Source: Thraustochytrium sp. TN22
Taxonomy: Eukaryota; Sar; Bigyra; Thraustochytrida; Thraustochytriidae
Length of the DNA: 64,000 nucleotides
Assembly: GCA_013306675.1 (NCBI GenBank)
Contig: JABLUY010000164.1
Coordinates: forward strand, 1-64,000
Direction of reading: 5' to 3'
Positions 10,991-16,340 of this stretch are shown piece after piece. Under the pieces are notes generated by a model. That model saw nothing but the letters and a program-made list of their open reading frames with translations. It did not search any database and was not told where the DNA came from. Both the position numbers and the translations under genes were made by a program. Numbering within the stretch: the first letter of the stretch is position 1; each line of letters starts with the position of its first letter.

Positions 10991-12033
10991 CGACACAGCA
11001 GCTCCTGCGCCGCGCGGGACATGAGGCCGCGCGCACCAGCGACCGCCGGAATTGAGCATACGCCGGCAACCGGTCCCTTACAGTTAGCGCGGGCTGAATG
11101 GCGCGCGCGACGATCAACAGCGGGCGCGCTCCTCCTAGCCGGTAGACTGCTCGAGGATGGCGTGATGCCTGGCCTGGCTGTGCTCGACCTCGCCAGTCTT
11201 CTTTTGGGGCCGAACCACCGATTCCCGCCAACACAGAGAAACACCATAAGCACCTCAGTCTTGTACAAGGTGGCGATCTTGGCCCTAAGTTTGCCGAAGC
11301 GCGTGGACCCCTTGAAGCGAATCTGCACCATGGGCTTATACCCGCCAAGATCAACGGTGATGGCCAGCGTTGCCTGTTTCTGCGACCTCAACTTGAAGCT
11401 CCCGGCGCTTGGCACACTCTGCGCGAACAAGCTCGCCGCTGCCGATGAGGACTCGCCACGAGCGCGCGCAGCGCGCGCAGAGGCTCGCCTTCGTTCCAGT
11501 CAAGTCGCTCGCTGTCGCCACGAACTGCCAGCCCGCTGTGGCCAAGGCGACTCACCTCTCCTTCGGCCTCATGCCGTCGTGCCCAGCGCCCCCGTGGCGC
11601 GCCCCGAGCGCCGGCGTGGCCGACTCTTAGCCGCTCCCCGCCAGCGCCAGCCACGGCGCGCCCGCACCTGCGCACCGCCAGAGCGCAGCAGGAGCGCCGC
11701 GGGACGTCGGCGGGAGCGCGTGCAGTGAGTGCACTGTGGAGAGTAGCGGAGTAAATGGGGACAGGCGTGTGCAGTCCTCTGCTAAGCTGCGTCGCGGACT
11801 CGTTGCGATCATTGCGATCCCAGCGCGCTCGCATGGCCGGCAGCGGCGCGTGGTCAGCTAGGCCTGGCGACCAGGCGCAGACCCCGAACCGCGCAGAGAG
11901 CGAGCGGGCAAGCCAGCCACGCGGGCAGGAGCGGCCGAGTCGAGTCACAGAGCGCGAGCGAGGCGTGCGAGCCGGCAAGACGGCAGCGCGGGCCGCAGCG
12001 GCAGGGTCGGGGGAAGCGAGCGCGGCGAACAAG
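10991..12033. other. Intergenic with a SUMO-like remnant
   Basis: About 1 kb between the DUF829 gene and the three-domain SUMO-like gene. Apart from the SUMO-like segment at 11215-11367 on the minus strand, I see only CG-rich sequence. The frame of the downstream gene is open back to 11755 but its translation there is Arg/Ala-rich and not family-like. Confidence 0.45.
11215..11367 (-). pseudogene. SUMO-like domain segment, possibly a remnant
   Basis: The minus strand encodes about 51 residues with the strand-strand-helix-strand pattern of the SUMO-like domains next door: LAITVDLGG, MVQIRFKGS, a helix with GKLRAKIATLY, then LMVFLCVGGN. This lines up with LVITVTAQDG and AVKATFPVQKVCKAF of the neighbour. 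Base composition is less GC-rich than the flanks, as in coding sequence. No ATG or convincing complete exon set was found, though an AG acceptor just before KQATLAIT would fit. The last part of the domain, with the conserved intron and the DGDxID block, is not recognisable. It may be a decayed copy or an exon of an undetected gene. Confidence 0.38.
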
Positions 12034-13398
12034 ATGGCGGCGGAGCAGCCGTCTACGGCGACTGCGGCCAAGGCGGTGACGCCGGAGACGGTACAGGTCA
12101 ACGTCACCTTCGAAGGGATCGACTTGAAGGATTGCCCGTTGAAACTACGCATGGCAATGCCGGGCAGCAAGATTGTGGCTTTGATGGCCGAGCGGCTGGG
12201 TATGCCTGTTCGCCTTGAGTACCGGGACAAGCAGTGGGGTTCCACGGAGACCCCTCGCAGCATGTAAGTTTTCTCGCTGGGCCAGGCCTTGTAAATGATC
12301 GATCTCTCGCGTGATCTCACGCACGCCCGTGTTCACGACGCAGCGGTATACGCAAGGACGACACGGTGATCTGCCGTCCTGTCGGCGAGCAAACAACGCC
12401 AGGGCCGGGGACGGAAGACGGCCTTACGACTCACGGCGAGCGCACGGCCAGCTCGCAGGGAGATGCGATCCTTCCGAGCAAGGCCACCTTGGACGGCTCG
12501 CAGGACGCCAGGTCCATTTCCCTCGAGCGCACGCCGCCTGTGTCGGAGACCAACGCCGCCGAGGCGAAAAATAGCCCTCTGGGCGGTTCGTGGCGAGGCG
12601 CGCTCGAAACCTCGAAGCGGACGCCAGTTGGACCGCCGGAGGACAGCCCCCGCGTCGCCAAACGCGCTTCTCTGCGGGGGGCGCAGGAGAGCCCAGGGAC
12701 GGCTAACGAGCGCGCGTCGCCGGGGCGGGCAAGCACCGAGTCCAAGCTGGTTATCACGGTCACTGCCCAGGACGGCACCACCCAGCAGTACGCTGTGAAG
12801 GCCACATTCCCGGTCCAGAAGGTTTGCAAGGCCTTTGCGAACCATCTTCAGGTTGACCTGGCTCGTCTCCGCTTCGTTTTCCAGGGCGAGCGCATTCAAC
12901 AGAACGCCAGGCTGACCTTGGCCGAGATGTAAGTCTGCGACTGCCGTGGCGAACGAGGAAATGAGGAGCACGCCATGCTGACCAACCATATTCCAACAGG
13001 AACCTGAAGGATGGTGACAGAATCGACTGCCTTCTCGAGCAGTCTCCAAAGCTGACGCTCGTGATCAAGAGCCAGGAGGGTAGCACCAGCCAATTCAGCG
13101 TCAAACCGGAGACTCCGGTCCTGCGCATCTTCGAGGCCTACGCGAAGCAGGCCAAGGTCGACCTGGCGAACCTTCGCTTCCTCAGGGATGGCGATCGTCT
13201 CCCGACGAAGGACACCGTGACAGTGGCCGACGTGTGAGTTCCTCGCACGGCGAAGTTGATGAGACATGAGACATTGAGAGAGGGGCCGACTGACACTCAC
13301 GTGGTGCGTACCACAGGGACTTGCACGACGGAGATGTGATTGATTGCATGTCGGAGGTTCACGGCGGCGGCTCCGCATACTTTGCGCAGGGCAAGTGA
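12034..13398 (+). CDS. Triple SUMO-like protein with C-terminal Gly-Gly
   Basis: Four exons (introns 12264-12343, 12929-12999, 13234-13316) give 376 residues with three SUMO/Rad60-SLD-type beta-grasp domains at about 20-90, 211-286 and 289-367. Domain 1 has VTFEGIDLKDCPLKLRMAMP; domains 2 and 3 end in NLKDGDRIDCLLEQ and DLHDGDVIDCMSE, the SUMO C-terminal pattern. A 120-residue Ser/Pro/Arg-rich linker separates domains 1 and 2. After the last domain comes HGGGSAYFAQGK, so a SUMO protease could expose a Gly-Gly end (G366-G367). Internal domains lack Gly-Gly, so the protein would stay a fused modifier. Every intron is phase 2 and interrupts each domain just before its DGD block. The ATG at 12034 (AAGATGGCG) is chosen; upstream ATGs at 11755 and 11833 are in frame. 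Confidence 0.85.
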
Positions 13399-13526
13399 GA
13401 AGCATCGACACATTCCTTGGCGGAAGCTTCACCTCAGCAACTGGGACAAGTCCTGGCGTCACTGGCGTTTACACTCTTTCTAAGATATAAGATCCTAAGC
13501 GAACCTGATGATGGTAGCGAGCGTGA

Positions 13527-14244
13527 CTACGGAAGGCATCCGCCGCCAACCTGCGACCCCATGCACGAGATCTCGTCGTTGTCCTCCATGTCCCTACGCA
13601 GCAAGCCCTTGTCAGCCTCACGGTGCGTGCAATGGCGTGAGACAACCGCTACTTACAAATCCTTTGGCGTCGCCGTTGGAGAGACGTGGTCTCCGTCATA
13701 GATGAACCGAAGGTCCATTTTGTCAACCTTGATGTGCTTGGAAAAAGCGTCGAACAACTTCACGAAGGGCGTCGTCCGCTTCACCTTGTAGGTTTGTTGT
13801 ATCCAATCTGCTTTCATGATGATGTGGAGGGTGGGCTCCGAGGGCTTGCCGGCTTTCTCGTTCTTGACGTCTTGCACGGGGACCTGCTCGTCCTTTTGCT
13901 CCTTTTGCTCCCTTTGCTCCACCTCCTCCTCCGCCTGCGCCTTGAAACAGAAGAGCTTGTCGCCCTCCTTCATGGCCCTGTCTCGCGTCGCGACCGTGAG
14001 CAACCGACTCTCGAGGCGTCTGAGCGCGCAAGGGTCGGCATTTCGCTTACATGCTTTCAGGAGAGTCCCACGCAGTGAAGGGGTTTCCCTTGTAGACGAA
14101 ACGTAGCTGCTCAGGGGGGAGGTTGGCCACCTTGCTGGCGGCAGCGATCACCTTGTGGCCCGGCGTCGCAGCGCGGAGCCGGAAGCGCCTCTCATTGATG
14201 TCGAAGCCCTCGAAGATTACTACGAGCTCGATTGCGTCAGACAT
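13527..14244 (-). CDS. Double SUMO-like protein with C-terminal Gly-Gly
   Basis: Three exons (introns 13978-14050 and 13594-13656 on the minus strand) give 193 residues. Domain A (about 5-76) starts IELVVIFEGFDINERRF; a charged Glu/Gln/Lys linker follows; domain B (about 112-189) starts TLHIIMKADW. Domain B ends LDMEDNDEISC, very close to the LDMEDNDIIEA of yeast Smt3, then GSQVGGGCLP, so processing after Gly-Gly (G188-G189) would release a four-residue tail. Both introns are phase 2 at the same domain position as in the triple SUMO-like gene, whose stop faces this one across 128 bp. Grass DiSUMO-like proteins are a known two-domain precedent. The MSDAIEL start is chosen because the upstream frame has no family resemblance. 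Confidence 0.85.
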
Positions 14245-14780: not shown

Positions 14781-16340
14781 TCAATAGTGCCTGCCGAGGC
14801 CGGTTACGGAGAAGCGCTTGCCCTCAAAGGCTTCCTGTAGAGCGGCCTCGAGGTCCTCCCGCAGAGAAGCGATGCGCGCCTCTAGCGCGACGCGCTTCGG
14901 CGCGAGCCGCTGGCGGTCGGCCTGCGCCTGCGTCGTCTTGGCCTGCAGCTGGCGCACTGATGCGCGAAGTTTGTCTTCCAAACCGCGCATGCGCTCGAGA
15001 TCGAGCACCATGCGCTCGAAGCGAGGTCCACCCTGGTCAATGATGGTCAGGTCGGCGAGCTCGCGGTCCGCGAAGGCCCTTTGCGCGGCGTCCACGGCCG
15101 CGATCAGGGCCTCCAGCTCGCCCTGCGAGAGCGAGGCGGTCGCTCGGTTGCCGCCCGAGCCGGCGTCAAGCCAGGCCGCGGCGGCCGCGCTGCTGCGCGA
15201 GTCGCCCGCCTCGGCCAGACGCTGCCGCAAGAAGCTGCGCAGCTCCGCCAGGTCGCGGACCACCTGCTCGCGGGCTGCCGGCGACCGAAGCCCCGTGGCG
15301 TCGCGTTCCGCGTTCTCCGCGCAGGTGCCCGCTTCGCCCGCTGGGTCTGCTTCGTCCGTGGGGTTCTCCTCAGCGATGTCCCAATCGATGCCTGCTCCAT
15401 CATCGCCCCAATCGATCCCGGCCTCATCGACCTGCTGGATTGCAACGCCGTCTGGTGTCGCGCTGCTGTTCGCGAATGCAATTCGGTCAGCTTCCTCATA
15501 CGGCACGTCCGCATTCTCCGGCAAACTCGACGTGAGTACACCACGCAGCGCAGCAAGGGACGCGGCTGCGAGCTCGCCCTCTGCATCAGGCACGGCGGCG
15601 TCGTAATGTGCGAGCGCAGAGCGCAGGGCCGCGGCCTGCAGCGCGCGCCAGAGCGCCACGAGCCGCGCAGGCAAAACGTGCGCGGCGCGGTGGCGGAGCT
15701 CGGGGACGAGGTCGACCCCGAGCACGCCAAGGCCGTCGCAACGCGCCCGGAAGGCGCGATGATGACTCTTGATGTTGCGCTCGTGTATAATGACGCGCTT
15801 CTGCGCGGCCGCCATCTCGCGCTCCAGCTTGGCCAGGTGCCCAAGGACATATGAGAGGTCGTAGTGCACAAGCCGCTCGAGCAGCCTGGCGGCCTGCACG
15901 ATATCCATTCGGTCGCGCCGAAAGTCAGCAATGGTCTGCCGCAGCTCCTCCAGCTGCGCGTCGTGGTACGCGCCGCTCCACCAGGACGTCTTGGTGCGCT
16001 CCTCCGGGAGGCCCTCGCGTAGTGCGCGAAGCGCGTCGGCGCAGTCGAAGGCCGTCACCTCGACGCGGGTGTCGCCCTGCAGGGCGGCCGCCTGGAGCGC
16101 GGTGCGCGGGTCCACACCGAGCGGCAGGCCGCCCACGGCCTCGTGTGCGCGCTCGCGCAGGCGTTCCAGGCGCTCCCGCGAGGCCTTGGCATCGCCCTCC
16201 ACGATGCCGCCGCTGCGCGCCAGCTCCTCCACGCGGTCGATGCTGACGCGCGTGGGCGGGAGCGCCGCGGCCTCCTCGCGCCGCCGCGCCGCGCCCCACG
16301 CCAGGCCTGCGCGCCGCGCCAGTGCTTCCAGCGTCTCCAT
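14781..16340 (-). CDS. CDK5RAP3: C53/CDK5RAP3, UFMylation and ER-phagy receptor
   Basis: The 519-residue product is predicted helical coiled coil, like C53/CDK5RAP3, a partner of the UFM1 ligase UFL1-DDRGK1 that acts in ER-phagy of stalled ribosomes. Two IDW motifs sit in tandem at about residues 308-322, AGIDWGDDGAGIDWDI, in an acidic loop. These match the shuffled ATG8-interacting motifs known from plant and animal C53. The C terminus FEGKRFSVTGLGRHY also matches the family ending. Flanking regions are coiled coil (about 130-260 and 430-510). The start METLEAL at 16340 is chosen because upstream residues in frame are low complexity. Subunits UFL1, DDRGK1 and UFM1 are not in this window. Confidence 0.88.
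   Translation of the reverse strand: METLEALARRAGLAWGAARRREEAAALPPTRVSIDRVEELARSGGIVEGDAKASRERLERLRERAHEAVGGLPLGVDPRTALQAAALQGDTRVEVTAFDCADALRALREGLPEERTKTSWWSGAYHDAQLEELRQTIADFRRDRMDIVQAARLLERLVHYDLSYVLGHLAKLEREMAAAQKRVIIHERNIKSHHRAFRARCDGLGVLGVDLVPELRHRAAHVLPARLVALWRALQAAALRSALAHYDAAVPDAEGELAAASLAALRGVLTSSLPENADVPYEEADRIAFANSSATPDGVAIQQVDEAGIDWGDDGAGIDWDIAEENPTDEADPAGEAGTCAENAERDATGLRSPAAREQVVRDLAELRSFLRQRLAEAGDSRSSAAAAAWLDAGSGGNRATASLSQGELEALIAAVDAAQRAFADRELADLTIIDQGGPRFERMVLDLERMRGLEDKLRASVRQLQAKTTQAQADRQRLAPKRVALEARIASLREDLEAALQEAFEGKRFSVTGLGRHY

Follow-up and report, generated by a model that had tools for sequence, protein, structure and literature searches.

Two convergent genes, A and B, in the window (the whole stretch of 64,000 nucleotides that was analysed; contig C71 of a thraustochytrid genome of 37.9 Mb in 453 contigs) encode three and two SUMO-like domains in one chain, respectively, and each chain carries a Gly-Gly pair followed by a short tail at its C-terminus only. 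This anatomy suggests that A and B are probably precursors of fused, uncleavable di- and tri-SUMO modifiers that would mimic preassembled SUMO chains.

Structure and domains of genes A and B

Gene A contains domains A1, A2 and A3, and gene B contains B1 and B2; their stop codons face each other across a gap of 128 bases. All five introns are GT-AG, lie in phase 2 and are 63-83 bases long; splicing keeps the frame, and the seven exons, joined by five intact splice pairs, contain no frameshift or internal stop. The ATG of gene A at 12034 was chosen by eye for the best Kozak context and is uncertain (further in-frame ATGs lie at 11755 and 11833), and the start of gene B is likewise uncertain, with in-frame ATGs upstream; from its chosen start, B shares the N-terminus MSD with ordinary SUMO. 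In gene A, A1 and A2 are separated by ~115 low-complexity residues, and A2 passes into A3 almost without a linker. The stretch LGGSWRGA in the exon 2 linker resembles the QGGSWVA end of ordinary SUMO, a likeness that is probably due to chance.

Table 1 Coordinates of genes A and B, their exons and introns, and the neighbouring C53 gene in the window.
Feature	Position	Strand	Description
Gene A	12034..13398	+	376 aa, 4 exons, three SUMO-like domains
Gene A exon 1	12034..12263	+	chosen start ATG and most of divergent domain A1
Gene A intron 1	12264..12343	+	GT-AG, phase 2
Gene A exon 2	12344..12928	+	A1 last strand, low-complexity linker, most of A2
Domain A2	~12741-13042, intron included	+	
Gene A intron 2	12929..12999	+	GT-AG, phase 2, same place in domain
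Gene A exon 3	13000..13233	+	A2 last strand (CLLEQSPK, no Gly-Gly), most of A3
Gene A intron 3	13234..13316	+	GT-AG, phase 2, same place in domain
Gene A exon 4	13317..13398	+	A3 last strand, Gly-Gly (13363-13368), tail GSAYFAQGK, stop
Gene B	14244-13527	-	193 aa, 3 exons, two SUMO-like domains
Gene B exon 1	14051..14244	-	chosen start MSDA..., most of divergent B1 (SUMO-like fold predicted)
Gene B intron 1	13978..14050	-	GT-AG, phase 2
Gene B exon 2	13657..13977	-	B1 last strand (CFKAQAEE, no Gly-Gly), charged linker of ~30 residues, most of B2
Gene B intron 2	13594..13656	-	GT-AG, phase 2, same place in domain
Gene B exon 3	13527..13593	-	B2 last strand, Gly-Gly (13542-13547), tail GCLP, stop
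C53/CDK5RAP3 gene	14781..16340	-	PF05600 1.7e-36; extent counted from one ATG; neighbour outside the system

The preliminary description had proposed several SUMO-like domains per chain and named a profile search as the way to check this. We found that the Pfam Rad60-SLD model covers two stretches in each protein (A, 1e-26; B, 1.1e-17), and that, among solved structures, both proteins match a two-domain human diSUMO-2 chain best (4bkg; A 9.9e-19, B 1.1e-19). A SUMO profile built from 15 sequences from outside the window, 13 of them found by a query containing window sequences, was run on all 1081 stop-to-stop window frames of at least 25 aa; E fell below 1 in six frames, each one an exon of A (exon 3, 7.6e-19; exon 2, 1.1e-11; last exon, 4.1e-4) or of B (exon 2, 2.3e-13; last exon, 3.3e-4; exon 1, 0.0039). 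The evidence for the two first domains is weaker: A1 has no match to a Pfam model and only E 37 with the SUMO profile over the window frames, and B1 alone falls under the Pfam cut-offs. A1 and B1 are kin to each other (phmmer 1.7e-6 within the window), A1 being the best non-self match to the first domain of B in a whole-genome search (E 0.0079), and a joint A1 and B1 profile matches SUMO in hhalign (95.4%, E 1.8e-8). Together, Pfam, profile and hhalign results bear out three SUMO-like domains in A and two in B.

The C-termini align with that of the ordinary SUMO gene of this genome (on contig C6), reading CMSEVHGG-GSAYFAQGK in A3, CMGSQVGG-GCLP in B2 and CMVQQQGG-SWVA in C6, and the distance from intron to Gly-Gly is identical in all three. 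A3 and B2 thus each show what is expected of a conjugatable precursor (i.e., a C-terminal SUMO-type beta-grasp domain, then Gly-Gly at SUMO spacing, then a tail). Gly-Gly occurs at these two ends only, as had been described from the sequence, although both ends actually read GGG; at the matching place the internal domains have QT (A1), PK (A2) and EE (B1), which agrees with the earlier statement that they lack Gly-Gly. The stretch LDMEDNDEISC in the last domain of B, described before as almost that of Smt3, shares 8 of its 11 residues with the Smt3 sequence, and an SMT3 database match shows the same stretch. A2, A3 and B2 also retain the second-strand basic residue and hydrophobics and the helix K/R plus V/I/L pair, which we take to be the SIM groove of SUMO.

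Third-position GC is 0.78 in A and 0.79 in B (0.56 and 0.46 at positions 1-2), a signal that favours live or recently live genes and carries no information on their level of expression. These values lie below those of five other window frames (0.825-0.878) and are similar to that of a second SUMO gene of the genome, on C343 (0.77).

A SUMO-like remnant had also been placed beside the two genes, at ~11215-11420 on the reverse strand. It did not hold up: the stretch has no Pfam match, reaches 0.7% in hhalign, is absent from the profile list at E <= 50 and gives a best shuffle z of 3.8. The C53 gene named as a neighbour is present (as CDK5RAP3), but its proximity is not a sign of a link to the UFM1 pathway.

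Descent from SUMO and known tandem SUMOs

A phase-2 intron lies at the same domain position in A1, A2, A3, B1, B2 and the ordinary SUMO gene of C6 (6 of 6; the C6 gene is on the reverse strand, exons 993-773 and 692-626), and it is absent from the open frames of the C343 SUMO and of a RENi-like gene on C30. Because the A and B domains share this intron with the C6 gene and the RENi-like gene lacks it, A and B most likely derive from the ordinary SUMO gene. A tree of 27 domains groups A1 with B1 (support 99/98), A2 with A3 (96/90) and, with moderate support, all five A and B domains together (86/81). A1 sits on a long branch in this tree, and ubiquitin and a SUMO-like domain from C395 fall implausibly beside ordinary SUMO, which indicates that long rows are unreliably placed.

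These groupings fit a likely order of duplications. An ancestral one-intron SUMO gene would have been duplicated head to tail within one gene; the two-domain ancestor would then have lost its internal Gly-Gly while its first domain diverged; and this gene would have been copied in inverted orientation, with the last domain doubled again in A.

Searches with A and B as whole queries returned no relative at E 0.001 (6024 and 33 candidates), though the SUMO of Hondaea fermentalgiana (P0042), to which the ordinary SUMO of this genome is close, is in that database. A profile built from A2-A3, B and two ordinary SUMOs (2402 candidates) found 81 proteins, 20 of which have at least two full SUMO domains. 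In 19 of these 20 (P0001-P0019), Gly-Gly follows every domain, making them cleavable into monomers; 18 have two domains, and P0001 (299 aa) has three full ones. By eye, 14 of the 19 (P0003-P0015 and P0018) begin with a short DGERV...GG segment like half a SUMO. P0011 carries a name from the transcriptome MMETSP1105, assigned to Ochromonas sp. BG-1 in PMC6484121, so that a cleavable multi-SUMO form appears to be transcribed in a chrysophyte. These proteins resemble A and B in having two or three SUMO domains per chain and, for P0011, in coming from a stramenopile; they differ in the Gly-Gly after each domain (19 of 19), which is absent after the internal domains of A and B. Of this set only P0001, P0002 and P0011 entered the tree, where their domains group apart from A and B. 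The twentieth protein, P0020 of the flowering plant Heracleum sosnowskyi, is like A and B in that its SUMO-like segments exceed two, Gly-Gly is missing inside the chain and the protein closes with VGGG and a tail, but it has two full domains and one partial domain and occupies a separate branch of the tree.

In the grass DSUL/GSUL2 concatemers, as described in PMC6680281, SUMO-like domains are likewise fused head-to-tail at a multi-copy locus, and some concatemers lack internal and/or terminal Gly-Gly. A and B are set apart from that locus by the three-domain gene, the very diverged N-terminal domain in both genes, the long linker and the intron in every domain, a distinction of described architecture rather than of compared DSUL sequences (PMC6680281). 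With the grass concatemers, P0001 and P0020 on record, a tandem or three-domain SUMO is not new, and the view that three-domain forms are absent elsewhere (the preliminary description knew of none with a long linker) is contradicted by the databases: P0001 has three full domains, and P0020 combines two full domains and a partial one with a Gly-Gly at its terminus only.

ISG15 and FAT10 are di-ubiquitin-like modifiers with one terminal Gly-Gly. They have this single terminal Gly-Gly in common with A and B and are built of ubiquitin-like rather than SUMO-like domains (both are named in PMC6680281). Among the matches listed from open-licence PMC full text, we found no description of a thraustochytrid SUMO fusion that is uncleavable and has a diverged N-terminal domain; judged by their titles and the opening of their abstracts, the matches listed there likewise included no paper on thraustochytrid SUMO and none on natural SUMO polyproteins whose domains each end in Gly-Gly. 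A survey of SUMO in Chlamydomonas reportedly dates from 2008. The uncleavable multi-SUMO form seems rare.

SUMO machinery and other SUMO-like genes of the genome

The search for SUMO proteases and an E2, suggested in the preliminary description, succeeded on both counts. Two UBC9-type E2s are 61% (C191) and 57% (C72) identical to human UBC9, the latter matching a UBC9-type structure in the PDB at 1.6e-56, and the active-site stretch HPNxYPSGxVCLSIL occurs in both genes (L036 on C191, L037 on C72). Two SENP1-class proteases (C137, 7.9e-50; C409, 3.1e-30) are among the 14 Peptidase C48 matches in the genome; 11 of the other 12 fall in frames longer than 1200 aa, and those of L026-L031 and L033-L035 sit within very long frames (1236-1982 aa), possibly mobile elements. 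A UBA2-like E1 subunit with ThiF, UAE_UbL and SCCH domains was found among 18 ThiF matches, and the one MIZ frame in the genome, which also has a SAP domain, is a candidate SUMO E3.

Rad60-SLD matches in the genome number 27, with ubiquitin and further ubiquitin-like proteins among them (12 frames were read). The RENi-like gene on C30 has an acidic N-terminus, two SUMO-like domains and no Gly-Gly end. The second SUMO is intronless and has a long tail (L012, G000:C343, 917-1393); upstream in its open frame, QLDVMVQQVGGAGDDEHSF resembles the terminal part of a further SUMO domain, and no full SUMO domain was seen in the 900 bases upstream. A 348-aa frame (L014, G000:C395, from 75159, reverse strand) has a C-terminal SUMO-like domain ending VQSQGC, with Gly-Cys replacing Gly-Gly.

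The genome also holds a PfaA-type PUFA synthase frame of 3044 aa, which with its neighbours in frame scores 2539.7 bits (cut-off 1010.1, with 14 control genomes below it). Beside it on the opposite strand is a 2083-aa frame that also matches the PUFA synthase model, a layout of adjoining opposite-strand frames that we take to be that of thraustochytrids. These frames and the closeness of the ordinary SUMO to that of Hondaea fermentalgiana most likely place the genome with the thraustochytrids rather than with plants.

Proposed fused modifiers and alternative readings

The anatomy best supports the proposal that A and B yield fused multi-domain modifiers (i.e., descent from SUMO by shared intron, Gly-Gly at the terminus only, and the enzymes in the genome), and this is the supported part of the earlier claim; expression, processing, conjugation and chain-like reading are what we infer from it. 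A SENP/Ulp1 protease would remove GSAYFAQGK from A or GCLP from B and expose Gly-Gly, and the SUMO E1 and a UBC9 would attach the entire di- or tri-SUMO to target lysines. Since the internal joints (QT, PK and EE) lack Gly-Gly, the unit should escape cutting into monomers. Once conjugated, the block would present itself as a ready-assembled SUMO chain to proteins that carry several SUMO-interacting motifs. There is a laboratory parallel for this multi-SIM reading step only: in PMC3901395, an engineered linear di-SUMO in which RS replaces GG binds the SIM domain of RNF4 with a KD of 14-17 uM, stronger than mono-SUMO and close to the 11 uM of a native di-SUMO chain. E1 and E2 might handle a fused unit of 190-370 residues poorly.

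The main rival is that A and B stay unconjugated, as stable RENi-like SUMO mimics that bind partners, their Gly-Gly being a leftover of origin. In RENi proteins (Rad60-Esc2-NIP45) the first SUMO-like domain is divergent and the last one clear (PMC549199), as in A and B, which have also lost the internal Gly-Gly; some grass concatemers have lost conjugation motifs too (PMC6680281). Both A and B nonetheless keep Gly-Gly at the exact spacing with a tail, whereas a C-terminal Gly-Gly is not conserved in RENi proteins according to PMC549199, and the RENi-like gene of this genome is a separate one, on C30, without the SUMO intron that A and B possess. For A2, A3 and B2, shuffle z is also higher against ordinary SUMO (24-30) than against the RENi-like domains (1.8-14). 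We consider the unconjugated role rather unlikely. As to the long polar low-complexity N-terminus of the RENi type, A and B lack one when read from the chosen starts, but in-frame ATGs upstream of both genes could extend them.

Decay into functionless pseudogenes after tandem duplication is improbable. It would account for the divergence of A1, the failure of full-length A and B searches to find an orthologue, the clustered and inverted copies, and a third-position GC under that of the five neighbouring frames, but it sits poorly with intact exons and splice pairs, with the Gly-Gly spacing kept in both genes and with the coding signal in that same third-position GC. That A and B are instead polyproteins like P0001-P0019, releasing ordinary SUMO monomers through another cut, is very improbable: 19 of 20 multi-SUMO proteins do have Gly-Gly after each domain, and the LGGSW of the gene A linker recalls the QGGSW end of ordinary SUMO, but A1, A2 and B1 lack a closing Gly-Gly, A2 and A3 adjoin nearly linkerless, and LGGSW lies ~60 residues beyond A1, outside any recognised SUMO fold.

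Fused modifiers encoded by A and B might let the cell put finished SUMO chains onto proteins rather than build them link by link. Going further, and tentatively, it is possible that this lineage evolved genetically encoded SUMO chains, in which an uncleavable di- or tri-SUMO is attached as a block, perhaps through the second UBC9 and second SENP, as a chain signal that could not be cut back to mono-SUMO. Should A and B prove to be conjugated, evolution would have arrived at nearly the same linear fusions with replaced Gly-Gly that are engineered to study SUMO chains (PMC3901395). Next to the cleavable polyproteins, A and B would then illustrate how tandem SUMO genes can take opposite courses, and they would provide a natural test of what a chain that resists dismantling does.
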